Of a stretch of DNA of 64,000 nt, positions 7,924-34,088 are shown one piece after another. This stretch comes from an uncultured Clostridium sp. (GTDB lineage Bacteria > Bacillota > Clostridia > Lachnospirales > Lachnospiraceae). Within the stretch, counting starts at the first letter, position 1. Every line of letters begins with the position of its first letter. The notes under the pieces are model-generated. The model saw only the letters and a list, made by a program, of their open reading frames with translations. It did no database searches and was not told the origin of the DNA. A program made the position numbers and the translations under genes. The stretch spans positions 1 to 64,000 of the forward strand of contig CAMEIH010000007.1 of NCBI GenBank assembly GCA_945917985.1, written 5' to 3'.

Positions 7924-8859
7924 ATGAAGGAAGAACAGGTCTTAAATATTTTTCCAAACCGTATCAGGGAACGTTTTCAAAAGACAGCAAAAAGAGTGGA
8001 CGAACTCCGGGAAATCCGTCTTGCAGCAGAGCTGCCTGTCAGGGTGATCTGCGGAAGGAAAGAATTGTTCTTAAACCAGACAGGGGAACTGTCGGAAATC
8101 ATCGGCACAGACTGTTGGTACATCCATGCAGGTGAAATGGAACAGATTCTCAACCATATCTGTAATTATTCCCGCTATGCATATGAAGAGGATATCAGGA
8201 GAGGCTTTATTACGGTACCCGGCGGTCACAGGATAGGAGTGGCGGGACAGGTTATTTTAAACGAGAACGGAACCGTCAGGAATATGAAATATATCCGCTA
8301 TATGAACATTCGTATCTCTCATGAAATCATCGGTGCTGCGGATACTCTGATGCCGCTTATCCATGAAGACGGAAAGCTGATGAATACGCTTCTGATCGGG
8401 CCGCCGTGCAGCGGCAAAACAACTATGCTTAGAGACCTGATCAGACAGATATCAAACGGAAGCAAGTGGGCAAGGGGACAACAGGTAGGAGTAATAGACG
8501 AACGGTCGGAGATTGCCGGATCTTATATGGGAATGCCGGGCAATCATCTTGGTATTCGTACGGATATTCTGGATGGTTGTCCGAAGGATCAGGGCATTAT
8601 GATGCTGATCCGGTCTATGGCACCGGAAGTGATAGCGGTTGACGAGATCGGGAGCAGCATGGACATGCAGTCGGTCAGAGCAGCATGGCAATGCGGGTGC
8701 AGAATGATCGCAACCATACACGGAGATTCCATGGAGGATGTATACCGTCACGGAATAGACAAACGAGGCTTTGAAAGATATGTTTTTCTGGGGAGAAATG
8801 GAGGGGGCTTCGGACTGGTGGAAGTGCGATCCGCGGAAGGGGAGATGAAACATGCTTAA
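7924..8859 (+). CDS. spoIIIAA: Stage III sporulation protein AA (ATPase)
   Basis: Secretion-type ATPase powering the SpoIIIA-SpoIIQ channel that links mother cell and forespore after engulfment. 311 residues with Walker A GPPCSGKTT (about residue 160) and Walker B VIAVDEIGS. Related to type II/IV secretion ATPases. ATG follows AAAGGAGG at 7912-7919. First gene of the eight-gene operon, overlapping spoIIIAB by eight bases, so the two are translationally coupled. Confidence 0.96.
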   Translation: MKEEQVLNIFPNRIRERFQKTAKRVDELREIRLAAELPVRVICGRKELFLNQTGELSEIIGTDCWYIHAGEMEQILNHICNYSRYAYEEDIRRGFITVPGGHRIGVAGQVILNENGTVRNMKYIRYMNIRISHEIIGAADTLMPLIHEDGKLMNTLLIGPPCSGKTTMLRDLIRQISNGSKWARGQQVGVIDERSEIAGSYMGMPGNHLGIRTDILDGCPKDQGIMMLIRSMAPEVIAVDEIGSSMDMQSVRAAWQCGCRMIATIHGDSMEDVYRHGIDKRGFERYVFLGRNGGGFGLVEVRSAEGEMKHA

Positions 8860-9370
8860 AGGAGCGGGAGCGGTTCTTTTGATGCTTGGGTCCTGTGGAT
8901 TTGCCTTAAGTATCTGCCGGGAACGAAACAGGAGATTACAGCTTTTAAAGGAGATGCGGGAGATGTTCCGGCTTTTGCAAAATGAGATCTGTTATACGGC
9001 TCTGCCTTTACCTGAAATTTTGAAGCTTGTGGGAGAAAAGGTGAATGCGCCTTTAGGAAAAGCGCTTCTTTTGACAGCGGAGCATATGAGGCTTGAAAAC
9101 GGTGAGGAATTTCGAACCGTATGGGAAGAGGAGATGAAAGAAATGTTGAAGGAAACTTCCCTGACGGCGCAGCAGAAGCAGCTTCTGATCAATTTCCCGG
9201 AATGCATGGGGATGAACGAAAGTACAGGACAAGCAAACGCGCTTAACCGCTATATAGAAGAACTGGAGTTGATGATCGCAGTACAGCGAGAAGAAGAAAA
9301 GAGCAAAAACAAAGTAATTATGAGCCTTGGAATTGCAGCCGGACTTTTTATGGTCATTATTTTGCTGTAG
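8852..9370 (+). CDS. spoIIIAB: Stage III sporulation protein AB
   Basis: Mother-cell membrane component of the SpoIIIA channel, related to GspF-type platform proteins. 172 residues with an N-terminal hydrophobic segment (AVLLMLGSCGFALSI), a helical middle part (RRLQLLKEMREMFRLLQNEI), and a C-terminal membrane helix (VIMSLGIAAGLFMVIILL). Its start overlaps the spoIIIAA end. Confidence 0.93.
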   Translation: MLKGAGAVLLMLGSCGFALSICRERNRRLQLLKEMREMFRLLQNEICYTALPLPEILKLVGEKVNAPLGKALLLTAEHMRLENGEEFRTVWEEEMKEMLKETSLTAQQKQLLINFPECMGMNESTGQANALNRYIEELELMIAVQREEEKSKNKVIMSLGIAAGLFMVIILL

Positions 9371-9391
9371 CAGGGGATAGGAGCAGAAACT

Positions 9392-9586
9392 ATGGAAGTG
9401 AGTCTGATTTTTAAAATAGCTGCAGTGGGAATACTTGTTACCATTTTAAGTCAGATATTAAAGCACAGTGGCAGGGAAGAGCATGCCTTTCTGATCAGCC
9501 TTGCCGGACTGATACTGGTACTGACCTGGATATTGCCTTATATTTATGACCTTTTTGCGATGATTCAGGAATTGTTCAGTTTTTAA
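9392..9586 (+). CDS. spoIIIAC: Stage III sporulation protein AC
   Basis: Small two-helix membrane protein of 64 residues, the usual size. The first helix is IFKIAAVGILVTILSQIL, then a charged turn (KHSGREEHA) and a second helix (FLISLAGLILVLTWIL). Third gene of the operon, 21 bases after spoIIIAB. It is thought to form part of the channel platform together with SpoIIIAD. Confidence 0.95.
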   Translation: MEVSLIFKIAAVGILVTILSQILKHSGREEHAFLISLAGLILVLTWILPYIYDLFAMIQELFSF

Positions 9587-9597
9587 GGGGGCTTTTT

Positions 9598-9984
9598 ATG
9601 GAAATGGTAAGAATAGGAATCCTGGGAGTTGCGGGAGTCATGATAGCTCTGCAGTTTAAAACAGTGAAACCGGAAATCAGTCTGTATATAGGATTTGCCG
9701 TCTGTATTGTTATCTTTACTTTTTCCGTGAACGGAATGATGCAGATCCTTTCGAAAATGGAAGAATTGCAGAAATATATCAGTGGGAGTGATTCCTATTT
9801 TACACTGCTGTTTAAAGCGGTAGGTATTACCTATATCAGCGAGTTTTGCGCTTCCATCTGCAAGGATGCCGGATACGGGGCGGTGGCGGGTCAGATAGAG
9901 ATATTCGGTAAACTGACAGTTCTCTTTATGGGAATGCCGGTGCTGATGGCAGTAATAGAAAATATCAGTTCTATTGCGGGATGA
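9598..9984 (+). CDS. spoIIIAD: Stage III sporulation protein AD
   Basis: 128-residue membrane protein with about four helices, homologous in its first half to SpoIIIAC. The conserved ITYISEFCASICKDAGYGAVAG-type segment lies near residues 80-100. The ATG is 11 bases after the spoIIIAC stop, with GGGGG before it. Part of the SpoIIIA trans-envelope complex. Confidence 0.94.
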   Translation: MEMVRIGILGVAGVMIALQFKTVKPEISLYIGFAVCIVIFTFSVNGMMQILSKMEELQKYISGSDSYFTLLFKAVGITYISEFCASICKDAGYGAVAGQIEIFGKLTVLFMGMPVLMAVIENISSIAG

Positions 9985-9999
9985 GATGAGGAGGCAGGA

Positions 10000-11055
10000 A
10001 TGGATTCCTATATCTGTGCGCAGATGAGTCAATATGATCTGCAGAAAATGCAGGAAGGGTTTGCAAATTTGTTCCCGGGATATGACATTGACATGAATGA
10101 ACTGTTTCTTATGATCATGCAGGGAAAAGTGGGCAGCGCCGTGAGAATGTTTTTTGAGGGAATAATGGAAGGAATAAAAGGAGAGATGGGAGGAATGAGG
10201 TCGGTGATGATCACCATTATCGTGATCGGAATCGTTTCTGCCCTGTTTTCCAGTTTCTCGGATATTTTTGCGGGACAGCAGGTATCCCAGGTAGGGTTTT
10301 ATTTTCTTTATCTGTTCCTGATCGCCGTGCTGACCAAGGCGTTCGTCTATGTTTCGGAGATTGCTGTAGGTACCATTGAAAATGTGGTTATTTTCGTTAA
10401 GCTGTTTATTCCTACCTGGTTTATGGCCGTGGGGGCCGCATCGGGAACGGCAACAGCGGGAGTATATTATCAGGTAATGCTGCTGGCAGCGTATCTGATA
10501 GAAAGCTTTCTCCTTTCGGCAGTCATCCCCTTTGTGTACAGCTATGTTGTGCTGGCGCTTCTCAACGGAATCTGGGCGGAGGAAAGACTGACACTGCTTC
10601 TTGATTTTATGAAAAAGGGAGTGGAAATAGCATTAAAGATCACCATGGGCGCAATTACATCCTTTAGTCTGGTACAGGCAGTGATCGTTCCGGTTTTGGA
10701 TGAACTGAAAATATCATCTTTTCGGAAAGCGGTATCCTATGTGCCGGGAATCGGAAACGTGGCAGAAGGCGTGACGGAGCTTGTGATCGGATCTGCTGTT
10801 TTGATCAAGAACAGTCTCGGGGTCCTGCTTCTTGTGCTGCTTTTGCTTGCATGCGTGATACCGCTTCTTAAGATTCTGATGGTGGCGGGACTTGTAAAGC
10901 TGGGAGCGGCAATAACGGGAATTATCAGTGATAAAAGGATCTCCGGCTGCAGCGACAGAGTGGGGGAGGGCTGCTTTTTACTTTTCCGATGTGTATTTAC
11001 AGCAGCTGCATTGTTCATCATCGTGGTTGCCATAGTGGCCTATGGGGTGAGATGA
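10000..11055 (+). CDS. spoIIIAE: Stage III sporulation protein AE
   Basis: Polytopic membrane protein, 351 residues, with several long hydrophobic helices from about residue 70 onward. The conserved SpoIIIAE core includes SYVPGIGNVAEGVTELVIGSAVLIKNSLG. It probably forms a membrane pore part of the feeding channel. GATGAGGAGG lies directly upstream of the ATG. Confidence 0.95.
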   Translation: MDSYICAQMSQYDLQKMQEGFANLFPGYDIDMNELFLMIMQGKVGSAVRMFFEGIMEGIKGEMGGMRSVMITIIVIGIVSALFSSFSDIFAGQQVSQVGFYFLYLFLIAVLTKAFVYVSEIAVGTIENVVIFVKLFIPTWFMAVGAASGTATAGVYYQVMLLAAYLIESFLLSAVIPFVYSYVVLALLNGIWAEERLTLLLDFMKKGVEIALKITMGAITSFSLVQAVIVPVLDELKISSFRKAVSYVPGIGNVAEGVTELVIGSAVLIKNSLGVLLLVLLLLACVIPLLKILMVAGLVKLGAAITGIISDKRISGCSDRVGEGCFLLFRCVFTAAALFIIVVAIVAYGVR

Positions 11056-11058
11056 GGA

Positions 11059-11619
11059 ATGATAGAAATCATAAAAGAAATTGGAATTTTTATTGTGATC
11101 GCACAGGCACTTCTTTACTTTGTACCGGGAGAAGCCTATGCAAAATATGTGAAAGTAGTGATAGGGATAGCCATGATTGCCAAGCTGGCGGACCCGGTTC
11201 TTTCTCTTTTTACGGATAATACCACGGATGCTCTTCTTGAGGAAGCACTTCACCAATCCTTTTCTTTTGCAGAGCAGCCGGAGAGCGGTTTCTATGACCA
11301 TACGGAAGAAAACGGACAGGAATTCCTGTTAAATGCGATAGAGGAGGAGCTTGCAAAAAGATTAAAGGAAAATCCCGTTAAAGGATATGAGGTGCAGGAT
11401 GTTCTTGTGCAGGAAAACGCTTCCGGTGAAATACAGGGAATCCTGATAACTGTTTCTGTATGCAGTGGGGAAAAGGCAGAGATTCAGATAGAAAAGGTTA
11501 TGATAAATCAGGAAAAAGAAGGAAAGACATTGGCAAAAGAGGAGGATGAGAGGCTGAAAGATTACTATGGAACAATACTGGAAATACCACCGGAACAGAT
11601 AGAGATCTGTCTGAGATAA
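11059..11619 (+). CDS. spoIIIAF: Stage III sporulation protein AF
   Basis: 186 residues: two N-terminal membrane helices (IIKEIGIFIVIAQALLYFV and KVVIGIAMIAKLADPVLSLF) followed by a soluble domain that in the family resembles ring-building motifs of secretion systems. It starts three bases after spoIIIAE. A dispersed repeat copy (11621-11657) lies in the 60-base gap before spoIIIAG. Confidence 0.92.
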   Translation: MIEIIKEIGIFIVIAQALLYFVPGEAYAKYVKVVIGIAMIAKLADPVLSLFTDNTTDALLEEALHQSFSFAEQPESGFYDHTEENGQEFLLNAIEEELAKRLKENPVKGYEVQDVLVQENASGEIQGILITVSVCSGEKAEIQIEKVMINQEKEGKTLAKEEDERLKDYYGTILEIPPEQIEICLR

Positions 11620-11620
11620 C

Positions 11621-11657
11621 CAAACGCCGACACGCTTTGCGAGCCGTCTTATTGGAC
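11621..11657. repeat. Dispersed intergenic element, copy A
   Basis: A 37-base stretch between spoIIIAF and spoIIIAG matching 23975-24011 (between nadK and argR) at about 30 of 37 positions. Shared core: CCGACA, then TTGCGAG, TTAT and GGAC. It contains a GAC/GTC inverted pair and a CCGA/TTGG outer pair, so it may fold as a short hairpin. Confidence 0.5.
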
Positions 11658-11679
11658 AAAGAAAGGAACCGGTGAAGAT

Positions 11680-12309
11680 ATGGAAGAAAAAAAGAAGAAA
11701 GCTCTTGATTTTACAAGATTGAAAAAAGAAAATTTTGTTGTCATTTTTCTGATTGGAATTTTGTTTCTCATCATAGCCTGGCCCACACAAAAGAATCAGG
11801 AGGAGGGAACCAAGTCCGGAATAACGGACATGGTAAGCGGTACAATAGGAACAAAGGAAGAAAACTACTCTTCCGTGACAGGAGTGCCCGGTAATGATTC
11901 GGAAAAGGATTACAGGGAATCCCTGGAAAGTACTCTGGAAGAACTTCTGTCCTCCATGGAGGGGGCAGGGAAAGTGAAGGTCATGATTACATTGCAGTCC
12001 TCGGGGGAAAGCATTGTTGAGAAAGATATGGTTTCTTCCAGAAGTTCCTCTACGGAGGTGGATTCTGCGGGAGGAAGCAGAAATACTGCAGATGTTTCGG
12101 ATTCGGAAGAAACGGTGTATACGGGTGGAACCGGCAAAGAGGATACTCCGTTTGTAAAGAAGATAATCTATCCGAAGATTGAAGGGGTGGTGGTCTGTGC
12201 ACAGGGGGGAGGAAATGCAACTGTAAATAAAAATATAACAGAAGCAATTCAGGCATTATTCGGTATAGATGTACATAAAATTAAAGTAATCAAAATGAGT
12301 TCCAGATAA
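11680..12309 (+). CDS. spoIIIAG: Stage III sporulation protein AG
   Basis: 209 residues: a cytoplasmic basic N-terminus, one membrane helix (NFVVIFLIGILFLIIAW), a low-complexity Ser/Gly/Glu region, and a C-terminal ring-building domain (VVVCAQGGGNATVNKNITEAI). In Bacillus it forms a large ring in the intermembrane space. The gap to spoIIIAF is unusual for this operon and contains the repeat above. Confidence 0.94.
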   Translation: MEEKKKKALDFTRLKKENFVVIFLIGILFLIIAWPTQKNQEEGTKSGITDMVSGTIGTKEENYSSVTGVPGNDSEKDYRESLESTLEELLSSMEGAGKVKVMITLQSSGESIVEKDMVSSRSSSTEVDSAGGSRNTADVSDSEETVYTGGTGKEDTPFVKKIIYPKIEGVVVCAQGGGNATVNKNITEAIQALFGIDVHKIKVIKMSSR

Positions 12310-12323
12310 AGGAGACTTAAGCT

Positions 12324-13055
12324 TTGAAAAATATGGTGAAAAAGAATCAAATTATGATCACGGCACTGGCAATTATGATTGCGGTGGCTGGTTACCTGAA
12401 CTTTGCGGGAACCAAGATTACGGATGAGGAAATTATGACAACAGGAGCCGATTCTGCGGTGATTTCAAATGGAATCTCTGAGGTGACAGATGATACGGAT
12501 GTGGCAGCTATGTTTGAAATATCGGATGAGGATATGGAACAGGCAGAAAGCTATGATATTGAAAGCATGGATTCTGAAGTGATCACTGACCAGGAAAATT
12601 ATCTTGAGGAATCCATGGAAGATACCATGGCTGAAATGACAGAGGAACAGATTCCTGAGACGGGAACACCGGGAGAGGCCGTATTTACTACTTCTGAGAA
12701 CGTGGATACCTTATCGGGAGCAAAGCTTATGAAAGAGCAGGTACGCGCAAAAAATAAAGAAACTTTACTTGAAATAATCAACAATGTAAATATCAGTGAA
12801 GAACAGAAGCAGGAAGCCATTGATGGTATGATTGCTTTGACTGATATCGCTGAAAAGGAAACTGCAGCAGAAATTTTACTGGAAGCAAAGGGATTTGATG
12901 ATGTGGTGGTCAGCATTACGGACGGTATGGTGGATGTAGTCGTAAACACGGCGGAGTTATCTGAGGCACAGCGCGCCCAGATTGAGGATATTGTGGTACG
13001 GAAAACAGGGATTTCAGCAGAAAATATTGTGATCAGCACTACTACAGAAGGATAA
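12324..13055 (+). CDS. spoIIIAH: Stage III sporulation protein AH
   Basis: 243 residues. A membrane helix near the N-terminus, a long acidic stretch rich in Asp/Glu/Met (about 35-110), and a C-terminal YscJ/FliF-like domain (EILLEAKGFDDVVVSITDGMVDVVVNTAELS) that pairs with SpoIIQ of the forespore. Start is TTG 12324, nine bases after GGAG. ATG 12333 is an alternative with 18-base spacing. Last gene of the operon. Confidence 0.92.
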   Translation: MKNMVKKNQIMITALAIMIAVAGYLNFAGTKITDEEIMTTGADSAVISNGISEVTDDTDVAAMFEISDEDMEQAESYDIESMDSEVITDQENYLEESMEDTMAEMTEEQIPETGTPGEAVFTTSENVDTLSGAKLMKEQVRAKNKETLLEIINNVNISEEQKQEAIDGMIALTDIAEKETAAEILLEAKGFDDVVVSITDGMVDVVVNTAELSEAQRAQIEDIVVRKTGISAENIVISTTTEG

Positions 13056-31274: not shown

Positions 31275-32018
31275 TCATTTGCAGGACAGCTTTCTGATTG
31301 CACTTATAACGCCGAACAGAAGCAGGATAGGGAGACATACAGACGATACAAGTGCTGCATATTCCGCAAATTTACCGTCACCCTTTGTATAGGCATGGTT
31401 GAGAAAAGGGATTCCGAGCACGATTACAAAATACCAGAAAGCAGGAACAAGATAATGCAGGTTTCTGCTTTTTTTCTGTCTGCCGGAAGATTTCACAAAA
31501 TAGGCATCTGTCAGATGATAAATTATGAGAAGAGATGCAAAGTACGTCGCAGTGCCGATGGCGGTGTGCAGAGCATTTTGTGTAAGGTAGCGGCTAAAAC
31601 CTGTCTGCCCCAGAAAAAGAGGAATATAAATGGACAGGATGATCCTCAGTACGTTCACGAAAACGGTCAGCACATAGGAGACAGGAAAGCTTAAGGATGT
31701 CCAGAGGAAGCCGCGTTCCGTGCGGTGTGCAAAGGAAAAAATAAGCATGGTGATGAGAATGATAAGGAACCGGACACCGCTGCAGGATGGCGCAATCACA
31801 TATTTCAGACTGTGGTTTACATAGCCCATGCCAGGCTCATGGGAAAAGGGAATACCGGTCATAAGTGTCACAAGCCGCGCTGTGGGGCCAAGAATCCATT
31901 GCAAAGCTTCACAGGAAGCCTCCGCATAAAAAAGTTTCAGAAAGAGGAGAGTGAGAATCCCCATAAGATAATAGATACTATTTTTTTGAACGATTTCTTT
32001 CAGCTTATATAAATTCAT
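31275..32018 (-). CDS. Exosortase-family membrane cysteine protease/transpeptidase
   Basis: About 247 residues with some seven to eight membrane helices. It has the exosortase catalytic layout in the right order and topology: Cys79 in APSCSGVRFL, Arg125 in NVLRIILSIYIP, His151 in QNALHTAIG. Exosortases cut proteins carrying a C-terminal motif-helix-basic tail and are mostly known from Gram-negatives and cyanobacteria, with some Firmicute classes. It follows the VIT-VWA gene by 48 bases on the same strand. ATG 32018 has an AGAGG site six bases upstream; GTG 32021 is adjacent. I do not know the exact subclass. Confidence 0.82.
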   Translation of the reverse strand: MNLYKLKEIVQKNSIYYLMGILTLLFLKLFYAEASCEALQWILGPTARLVTLMTGIPFSHEPGMGYVNHSLKYVIAPSCSGVRFLIILITMLIFSFAHRTERGFLWTSLSFPVSYVLTVFVNVLRIILSIYIPLFLGQTGFSRYLTQNALHTAIGTATYFASLLIIYHLTDAYFVKSSGRQKKSRNLHYLVPAFWYFVIVLGIPFLNHAYTKGDGKFAEYAALVSSVCLPILLLFGVISAIRKLSCK

Positions 32019-32066
32019 CACAAACCTCTTTCTTTTTATGCTTAGATAACAAAATCAAAACAACTG

Positions 32067-34088
32067 TCAGGCAATTTTACTGCGGCGTTTTCGGTGACGC
32101 AGCCCGCCGATCAGCATGATACCGATGAGAGCAACCACGAGAATCATGTCTGCCGGTTCCGAATAAGCACGATAACCACCGCCTACGGAAAGATTGGATA
32201 CCTGAAGGGGCAGAGGAAGAGCCTGGTCCACATCAGTGCTATTTCCTTCCGGGTTGCGAATCTCCTCCACCACTGCGATAAAGGAGGTGTAGGGTGTCAT
32301 GATGCTGTAGGTAATCCCGATCTGCGTTACTTCTTCCTTTACGGAGGGATCATCCTTGCTGTAGCCGTAATCCATCAGCCGTTCAAGCCGCATTCTCGCC
32401 CATAGATAGCGGATGGCATCCCCTTTTTCATAGGTTGTGACATCCTCCACCTTAATTTCCTGCGCATAATCGTCCTTTCCCTTTTTCCCGGTTATGGTGA
32501 TGGTTCCTTTGGGTTCCCCTTTCCATTTCCCGAAAAGTACAATGGGTTTTTGGGCAAACAAAGTGGAGGGAACGGAGGGCTCCACATCATACACTTCAAA
32601 GCCGTCATAGGCAACCTGAATATCTGTGAGAAGGGGAGACTGAATATAGGTGCGGAAACGGTCTGCGGTAGCGGCTGCATCCTCAGCATCTGTGACAATA
32701 AAGGATTCTCCGAGACCGGCTGTTGCGATTCCTTTGATCAGGTATTCATTTACCGCGTTGCCGATGCCGAAGGAGAAGAAGCTTGCCTTGTCCATGTTAT
32801 CATTGATGATATCAAAGGCATTCTGCTCGCCGGAGACATAACCGTCTGTGATCACCACAATGCTTCTGGCAATATTATGCTTGGAGGGAATGGCAACAGC
32901 ATCCTCCAGGGCAGGGGAGAGGGAGGTTCCGCCGTAGCCCTCCTGTTTGTCGATAAGATTCAATGCTTTCTTTATGTTTTCCTCTGTGGCAGGCACGGAT
33001 TTTTTCGACATCTGAACCGAGGAACCGGAAAAGAGAATCAGGTTAAAGGAATCCTCTTCCCGGAGATTGGAAACAAGATCCCGGATCAGAATCTTGGCGG
33101 TATCAAGAGGGTAGCCGTTCATGGAGCCGGATACATCCAGAACAAAAATGTACTCCCGTCTGGTGATCTCCTCCGGCTCGAAGCGTTCCGGCGGCTGTAC
33201 TGTCAGCATAAAGTAATTTTCATCGCTTCCTTCGCTGAGCATAAGACCGCTCCGGATATCCTCTCCGTTCAGCTTGTATTTTAAGATGAAATCACGGTTC
33301 CCGGCATAATCTTCAGGATTAGCGAGAGTAACCTGTGCGGAGGATTCTCCGCTTTTTACGATATTGATTTCATGAGACTTGCAGCCTAGGTCCGTGATCG
33401 GCACACCGGTGGAGAGATTGACGGTTATGTTATATGTATTATTTGGGGTTTTGCCATCAGGCAGATAAGGAGTTCCCACGAAATGATTGTGGTCGTCGGA
33501 AGCATCCTCGGAAGCACTCATATAGCGCGGTCCCACTACTGTGGGGAAAACAAATTCATAAGTGCCTTCACAGGGCGTGATCAGTTGGGTATAGTGGAGT
33601 TCAATCTTTGCAGTGTCGCCCGGCATGATATTGGCAACATCCATAGTAAACACATTGGGACGCTGTTCTTCCAGAAGAGAGGCGCTTTTTCCCTCACTTT
33701 TGGCCTGTTCGAATTCCTGCTTTGCTTCTTCCCGCTCCTTGATCCTGGCGGTGACCATGTGATTGCCGATCTGCATGGTCATGCCGTGGACAGTGACATC
33801 GGAAGATGCAGGGAAAACATATCTGGCATTGATGGGATTTTCTCCTTCATTTGCATAGGTCTGGTTCACAAAGATCTCCGCAATCATGCCGTTAATATTT
33901 ACCGTTACATCCGTCCCCTTTAACGGAAAGCGATCCACGGAGGAATCACTGCTCTCCACAATAAAGTAGGGTGCTGATATGCTGTCTTCATCCTCGGACG
34001 TTTCCTCCTTGGCGCATACCACAGGAGCGGATGAGACAAAAACAAGTAATGCAAGAAGCATACACAGACATTTCCTTTTCTTTTTCAT
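32067..34088 (-). CDS. Secreted VIT and VWA domain protein with C-terminal sorting-type tail
   Basis: 673 residues. Signal peptide (LLALLVFVSSAPVVCA), VIT domain (about 40-185; INARYVFPASSDVTVHGM), then a von Willebrand A domain with a complete MIDAS start Asp318-Val-Ser-Gly-Ser322 and later FITDG-type VVITDGYVSG. The end is Ser-Glu-Pro-Ala-Asp (643-647), a 16-residue hydrophobic helix and RHRKRRSKIA. That layout (short motif, helix, basic tail) is that of exosortase substrates, and the exosortase gene is next door. VIT-protein/exosortase pairs are known in Bacteroidetes (XrtN systems). Likely surface protein; ligand unknown. Confidence 0.88.
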   Translation of the reverse strand: MKKKRKCLCMLLALLVFVSSAPVVCAKEETSEDEDSISAPYFIVESSDSSVDRFPLKGTDVTVNINGMIAEIFVNQTYANEGENPINARYVFPASSDVTVHGMTMQIGNHMVTARIKEREEAKQEFEQAKSEGKSASLLEEQRPNVFTMDVANIMPGDTAKIELHYTQLITPCEGTYEFVFPTVVGPRYMSASEDASDDHNHFVGTPYLPDGKTPNNTYNITVNLSTGVPITDLGCKSHEINIVKSGESSAQVTLANPEDYAGNRDFILKYKLNGEDIRSGLMLSEGSDENYFMLTVQPPERFEPEEITRREYIFVLDVSGSMNGYPLDTAKILIRDLVSNLREEDSFNLILFSGSSVQMSKKSVPATEENIKKALNLIDKQEGYGGTSLSPALEDAVAIPSKHNIARSIVVITDGYVSGEQNAFDIINDNMDKASFFSFGIGNAVNEYLIKGIATAGLGESFIVTDAEDAAATADRFRTYIQSPLLTDIQVAYDGFEVYDVEPSVPSTLFAQKPIVLFGKWKGEPKGTITITGKKGKDDYAQEIKVEDVTTYEKGDAIRYLWARMRLERLMDYGYSKDDPSVKEEVTQIGITYSIMTPYTSFIAVVEEIRNPEGNSTDVDQALPLPLQVSNLSVGGGYRAYSEPADMILVVALIGIMLIGGLRHRKRRSKIA

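Follow-up and report, generated by a model that had tools for sequence, protein, structure and literature searches.

Exosortase K and an adjoining VIT-VWA protein as a probable two-gene sorting system in a Lachnospiraceae genome

Results

The window analysed here is a stretch of 64,000 nucleotides from an uncultured Clostridium sp. (contig CAMEIH010000007.1), and its minus strand carries two adjoining genes, one for a member of the exosortase K family (XrtK) and one for a secreted protein with VIT and VWA domains (the VIT-VWA protein). We regard it as highly probable that the two make up a dedicated sorting system, consisting of exosortase K and one VIT-VWA substrate. The computations established the family membership of the enzyme, the conservation of its active-site residues, a Glu-Pro motif followed by a helix and a basic tail at the end of its neighbour, and a one-to-one pairing of the two genes in four phyla.

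The enzyme and its neighbour

Both open reading frames (ORFs) were found where the initial annotation had placed them, and its reading of the membrane protein as an exosortase was confirmed by hidden Markov model (HMM) searches. The 248-residue protein scored 115 bits against the NCBIfam exosortase K model TIGR04287 (curated cut-off 55), 45.5 bits against the exosortase/archaeosortase model TIGR04178 (cut-off 23) and 35.9 bits against PF09721, Exosortase_EpsH (cut-off 25.7). The residues Cys79, Arg125 and His151 named in that annotation are present when numbering starts from the ATG at 32018; from the GTG at 32021, used here, they are Cys80, Arg126 and His152. The 48-base spacing claimed for the two genes likewise holds, counted from the stop codon of the VIT-VWA gene to that ATG. 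Cys, Arg and His in this order are what we take to be the catalytic residues of the exosortase/archaeosortase superfamily, and along with them N123 and G156 were invariant in the 21 aligned pairs (Table 1). All 21 aligned members matched the XrtK model at E <=0.001, and ten Gram-negative relatives scanned with TIGR04287 gave 92-125 bits, all over the cut-off. The window xrtK was the sole PF09721 match in its genome, and in 9 of 11 Lachnospiraceae genomes the XrtK of the locus was the only such match; PF09721 gave no match in the other two, G694 and G704, and so failed to detect even their known XrtK. A C-terminal extension was present on XrtK in 17 of the 21 members paired with VIT-VWA proteins (VIT-type) and absent from three paired with MSEP-CTERM proteins (MSEP-type, see below). 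One locus, L027 (3002-4111), encodes a XrtK of 369 residues in which a long insertion separates the Cys block from the Arg block. Weak matches to the XrtK model, of 20-21 bits, in G079, G415 and G373 were rejected, as the ORFs do not look like exosortases.

The neighbouring protein matched PF08487 (VIT) with 116.6 bits over residues 56-166 and PF13768 (VWA_3) with 70.4 bits, the VWA part comprising residues 314-460. Among solved structures, those nearest to its VIT-VWA part by sequence were PARP4, over profile positions 49-614, two heavy chains of the inter-alpha-trypsin inhibitor, H4 and H1 (VWA part), and a "conserved protein". The VWA part holds a DxSxS motif with a Thr and an Asp, presumably a metal-ion-dependent adhesion site. 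The C-terminus reads SEPAD-MILVVALIGIMLIGGL-RHRKRRSKIA, and both sequence and hydropathy agree with the Ser-Glu-Pro motif, helix and basic tail described earlier for this secreted protein; it has the complete layout of an exosortase substrate, with signal sequence, EP-type motif, helix and basic tail. Within the last 43 residues (631-673) only E644 and P645 were invariant among 21 homologues, while position 643 was S, P or A.

Linkage of the two genes across genomes

A collection of 84,980 species, each represented by one genome, was scanned with peptide patterns from three enzymes (those of the window, G274 and G107). The scan gave 48 pattern matches, and 21 loci encode a XrtK relative. These loci were found with the enzyme alone, and in all 21 a VIT-VWA sequence lies directly upstream on the same strand. 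With placement partly by tree label or gene order, ten loci were clostridial (L017-L025, L027; among them L021 from [Clostridium] citroniae WAL-17108 and L022 from Lachnospiraceae bacterium CE91-St56), five Desulfobacterota or unplaced deltaproteobacterial (L026, from an Olavius algarvensis symbiont, L028, L029, L034, L035), four Myxococcota (L030, L033, L036, L037) and two Acidobacteriota (L031, L032). Both alignments consisted of the window and 20 loci; L035 was counted in the linkage and left out of the alignments. L020 and L025 appear to repeat G274 and G107, and L034 and L035 come from one genome, that of Desulfofustis PB-SRB1, in which L035 (3180-6688) is a second copy, with both genes broken into fragments.

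Because the patterns came from VIT-linked enzymes, genome samples were also searched by HMM. Among 299 genomes of the family, XrtK exceeded its cut-off in three, the window genome (G000), G107 and G274, all with a VIT-VWA protein. The VIT-VWA model matched at E <=0.001 in 128 of these genomes and nearly full-length (about 430 bits) in three, which were the same three that carry XrtK; the next match reached 78.8 bits and covered the VWA part alone. Such a coincidence of three and three in 299 genomes has p = 2e-7, ignoring kinship. In the Desulfobacterota sample XrtK was over the cut-off in 3 of 247 genomes, centre genome G705 included, and a VIT-VWA gene adjoins it in all three. Distance matrices of XrtK and VIT-VWA agreed (Mantel r 0.90, with 0 of 10,000 permutations as high), an agreement that shared ancestry alone could give. 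In the tree, a single clade of VIT-type XrtK was neither rejected nor demonstrated (p-AU, the p value of the approximately unbiased test, 0.079), and the MSEP branches were long. The earlier proposal of a dedicated partner was upheld by the co-occurrence check, through the linkage in 21 of 21 loci, the matched presence in 299 genomes and a tail seen only beside the enzyme (below); judged from these sequences, the VIT-VWA protein is very probably the dedicated partner of XrtK.

The tail follows the enzyme

VIT-VWA proteins were found at E <=1e-60 in 42 of the 247 Desulfobacterota genomes (44 matches), and 30 of the 44 matches were read as loci. Three of the 30, those beside XrtK, had the EP-helix-basic end; the 27 loci without XrtK all had other ends. 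In the Bacillota sample, none of nine VIT-VWA proteins (E <=1e-40) from eight other genomes, all lacking XrtK, had the tail. Among the proteins read, the VIT-VWA family carries the EP-helix-basic tail only next to XrtK. Many of the Desulfobacterota proteins from the 27 loci without the enzyme (L129-L158) end, as judged by eye, in a C-terminal domain resembling the TonB type, so the family swaps its C-termini.

A scripted rule for the EP-helix-basic tail was run on 401 ORFs from 34 fetched loci. It passed 23, namely 20 VIT-VWA proteins (including one L035 fragment and one gene seen twice) and three MSEP-CTERM proteins, all beside an XrtK; the other 378 failed, including three XrtK-linked VIT-VWA proteins missed on helix length. 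Nineteen of the 21 VIT-VWA proteins passed, with L020 and L029 failing on helix length only, and so did two of the three XrtK-linked Desulfobacterota proteins (L156 was missed). In the window the VIT-VWA ORF was the only one of 59 to pass. The joint occurrence of tail and enzyme exceeds chance.

A tail profile of 45 positions gave one significant match per genome in all 11 Lachnospiraceae genomes, a single one in the window genome among them, and the next best anywhere had E = 0.043. The "few substrates" of the initial annotation could in this way be tightened to one known substrate. The second-best match in the window genome (E 0.059) fell on the end of a permease-like ORF and was rejected, being read as a transporter helix.

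These observations bear on another explanation, in which the two genes share an operon for some other reason, such as envelope-stress sensing, and the tail is a mere membrane anchor that XrtK leaves uncut. Pairing alone is no proof of enzyme and substrate, and regulatory genes over NCBIfam cut-offs come after the two genes in Desulfobacterota-type loci: CreB and CreC in L026, L028, L029 and L127, and CreB alone in L034 (counts leaving out L128). The surface protein may be linked there to an envelope-stress response. In the clostridial loci, a comparison of neighbouring ORFs showed nothing like CreBC immediately next to the two genes. Against a mere anchor, the homologues read have the tail where XrtK is present and lack it where the enzyme is missing, and what is conserved in the tail is only the E-P at the edge of the helix, which plain anchoring would not require. 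We judge this explanation improbable.

Several points weigh against the reading as a dedicated two-gene sorting system. Firstly, the set of 21 loci favours the VIT-linked subclade, the patterns having come from three VIT-linked enzymes. Secondly, VIT-VWA is not the only partner of XrtK, because the enzymes found by HMM, leaving aside the window genome and G705, split into four beside VIT-VWA (G107, G274, G757, G723) and three beside MSEP-CTERM (G359, G625, G489). Matches to XrtK below the cut-off (19-26 bits) occurred in 11 more Desulfobacterota genomes, none of them among the 42 with VIT-VWA. The pair is also rare in the family, at 3 of 299 genomes, and absent from G264, the one other sampled genome of the same genus. 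No PDB sequence matched XrtK at E up to 1, and the window genome is 88.5% complete, so that a second substrate could be missing. Lastly, cleavage, its site and the acceptor are drawn from exosortase and archaeosortase precedent.

Proposed mechanism and its alternatives

In the two-gene sorting system that we favour, the VIT-VWA protein would be exported by Sec, lose its signal peptide and be held in the membrane by its C-terminal helix. Cys80, Arg126 and His152 of XrtK would lie close to the membrane's outer surface, and the enzyme would cut at or next to Ser-Glu-Pro, freeing the helix and tail. Less certainly, the new C-terminus may be passed through an acyl-enzyme step to an acceptor of the cell envelope, such as a lipid or a wall glycan, and the transfer would display a metal-binding, adhesin-like domain on the Gram-positive surface. 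This transfer to lipid or glycan, suggested by analogy, is the least certain step.

XrtK could instead be a plain endopeptidase that cuts at SEP and either frees the VIT-VWA domains or gives them to a partner that binds non-covalently, so that no acceptor would receive the new C-terminus. The enzyme is short, with a core of 163 positions against 254 in the EpsH-type model, and among ORFs of at least 90 residues around 22 loci (named by eye) no gene for acceptor synthesis or glycans recurred beside the pair; both facts suit simple release. What recurred in at least three loci, besides the pair, was two-component genes, common families (AraC, TetR, ABC transporter, oxidoreductase) and the gene order of close relatives. 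Pointing the other way, a signal-peptidase-like enzyme would suffice for release alone, and we assume that this arrangement of Cys, Arg and His is what has been put forward for transpeptidation by archaeosortases. A plain endopeptidase is a possibility that we take seriously, without favouring it.

More tentatively, the pair may be a stand-alone and probably mobile cassette, made up of a single transpeptidase with a single cargo and used with or without an outer membrane, which in Gram-positives would place an adhesin covalently on a lipid or glycan. We find this wider proposal conceivable, if somewhat doubtful. If true, the cassette would be to exosortases what the dedicated sortase system (below) is to sortases, and it would echo the human VIT-VWA proteins of the inter-alpha-trypsin inhibitor, whose heavy chains are cleaved at the C-terminus and transferred to a glycan.

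The initial annotation had also placed the system "in place of LPXTG sorting", and this part did not stand. No LPXTG anchor exceeded the PF00746 cut-off in the window genome (best 16 bits, cut-off 20), and G107 gave no sortase match, as a replacement would predict. Nevertheless, sortase-domain matches were found in 9 of 10 XrtK-bearing Lachnospiraceae genomes searched, and the window genome has four, one being a contig-edge fragment. One sortase gene in it adjoins the gene for a surface protein, about 1,700 residues long, that ends in PKTGDP, a helix and KKDKTVVVRPKKA (L164 1-6234 and L168, G000:C18). Since the same genome has sortases, one of them beside a PKTGD-tailed surface protein, XrtK does not replace LPXTG-type sorting there; replacement is contradicted for the window genome and we consider it hardly tenable. 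A further ORF, L160 1-1626 (G000:C4), has a tail in which KPQTGD is followed by a weakly hydrophobic segment and by lysines, and scored 14.9 bits against PF00746, below the cut-off.

Comparison with known sorting systems

The closest known system is XrtK with MSEP-CTERM (TIGR04287 with TIGR04286), where the enzyme is of the same family by curated score and the partner also adjoins it. That pairing was seen in the loci and is no criterion of the TIGR04287 model. In the phylum sample XrtK was over the cut-off in 4 of 398 genomes, G000 and three others, and those three have an adjoining MSEP-CTERM gene instead of VIT-VWA. Short XrtK proteins of 181-194 residues stand there beside MSEP-CTERM proteins of about 900 residues (L012 6607-9829, L013 9777-13023, L014 9475-12912, other genomes of the phylum), and the two adjoin in 3 of 3 short-XrtK genomes. 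The partner in the window differs, being a VIT-VWA protein of 673 residues with a signal sequence. MSEP-CTERM (TIGR04286) was over the 150-bit cut-off in 0 of 13 VIT-type genomes searched, that of the window included, with two weak partial matches of 25-35 bits. In the three pairs read, the MSEP-CTERM partners likewise end in Glu-Pro, a helix and basic residues, which suggests that XrtK probably reads Glu-Pro in both partner types.

The proteobacterial dedicated sortase system (sortase TIGR03784, target TIGR03788, two-component pair TIGR03785/TIGR03787) has one enzyme and one adjoining substrate, according to passages of Haft and Varghese (2011, PMC3237569), and shares the cargo family: all 21 substrates matched TIGR03788. 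A two-component system also stands alongside in both that system, by NCBIfam names, and the Desulfobacterota-type XrtK loci, whose regulators pass the cut-offs for CreB/CreC and not those for TIGR03785/TIGR03787. Unlike the sortase, XrtK is an exosortase, and the tail has EP in place of LPXTG. The window VIT-VWA protein scored 431.8 bits against TIGR03788, below the cut-off of 551.65, and its tail lacks LPXTG, which leaves it outside that target family; the best of the 21 substrates (E 1.4e-134, about 450 bits) was still below the cut-off.

Passages of the same paper describe homologues of VIT-VWA ("vault protein") with GlyGly-CTERM, LPXTG (dedicated sortase) or PEP-CTERM tails, and a VIT-VWA protein with PEP-CTERM in Verrucomicrobium spinosum, which has an exosortase (PMC3237569). 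The account of VIT-VWA tails given there names no XrtK and no adjacent exosortase, whereas in the loci studied here a dedicated XrtK adjoins one known substrate. Both the partnership of XrtK with MSEP-CTERM and VIT-VWA proteins whose tails suit a sortase, a rhombosortase or an exosortase were already known. The exosortase N (XrtN) system of Bacteroidetes, in which XrtN is, as we understand it, paired with a VIT protein, resembles the present one in joining an exosortase to a VIT protein. A kinship with XrtN did not emerge: neither window protein matched any XrtN-named model (TIGR04476) at E up to 1, and 1 of the 21 members matched the XrtN model weakly (19.5 bits, cut-off 200).

An exosortase in the phylum of the window is in itself not new, because other members carry XrtK; both XrtK and MSEP-CTERM are already in NCBIfam. 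The pairing of XrtK with VIT-VWA appears to be new; neither it nor its four-phylum spread and one-to-one form was found in searches of the open-licence literature, and among the exosortase papers listed there no title or opening of an abstract concerned XrtK. To our knowledge the chemical product of exosortases is largely an unsettled matter. The present pair offers a minimal case, one short enzyme beside one known substrate, with strict signal conservation limited to Glu-Pro. A cell without an outer membrane offers few possible destinations, and the question of the exosortase acceptor thereby becomes directly testable. A single adhesin-like family also turns out to have repeatedly received tails suited to sorting enzymes that are unrelated to one another. 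PEP-CTERM was called Gram-negative only in passages of the 2011 paper (PMC3237569), which add that a species with PEP-CTERM proteins often carries at least twenty, and exosortases are still described as Gram-negative in parts of a 2025 paper (PMC12188702); it seems that this sorting route operates in Gram-positives as well.

Locus layout and features

Table 1. Coordinates of the gene pair, its motifs and the CreBC genes of related loci.
Feature	Position	Strand	Basis or remark
xrtK, exosortase K	31275..32021	-	248 residues from GTG at 32021; alternative ATG at 32018
His152 codon, proposed catalytic histidine (LHTAIG)	31566..31568	-	invariant in 21/21
Arg126 codon, proposed catalytic arginine (NVLRI)	31644..31646	-	invariant in 21/21
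Cys80 codon, proposed nucleophile (APSCSG)	31782..31784	-	invariant in 21/21 aligned VIT-linked XrtK
Intergenic gap, 45 bases (48 to ATG)	32022..32066	-	GA-rich stretch ahead of xrtK start
Secreted VIT-VWA protein, proposed sole substrate	32067..34088	-	673 residues; PF08487, PF13768, TIGR03788 matches
Basic cytoplasmic tail RHRKRRSKIA (predicted)	32070..32099	-	sequence
C-terminal membrane helix, residues about 647-663 (predicted)	32100..32150	-	hydropathy
Ser-Glu-Pro motif, residues 643-645, proposed exosortase recognition site	32154..32162	-	conservation of E644, P645
Metal-ion-dependent adhesion site D318-x-S320-x-S322 of VWA (putative)	33123..33137	-	with T388, D415; all five invariant in 21/21
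N-terminal signal sequence, about residues 1-26 (predicted)	34011..34088	-	basic start, hydrophobic run 8-24; end by eye
CreBC genes after the VIT-VWA/XrtK pair	L026 9084-11212; L028 8750-10854; L029 8805-10915; L127 2495-4599		NCBIfam cut-offs

The spacing of the two genes is consistent with one transcript. In 18 of 20 relatives the genes overlap or lie less than 80 bases apart; larger gaps were found in L019 (158 bases) and L034 (260 bases), all counted from longest-ORF starts. The two genes have a guanine-plus-cytosine content of 0.474; windows of equal size average 0.445 (standard deviation 0.012).

As for the host, described initially as a "spore-forming Clostridium", spore formation is plausible, with two SpoVAC/SpoVAEB matches over cut-off in the window genome; in place of "Clostridium" the family name Lachnospiraceae is preferable, since the nearest relative, at 82% identity, is a metagenome-assembled genome from that family. 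A run of ORFs at 7924-13055 of the window resembled, by eye, a spoIIIA-like sporulation operon.

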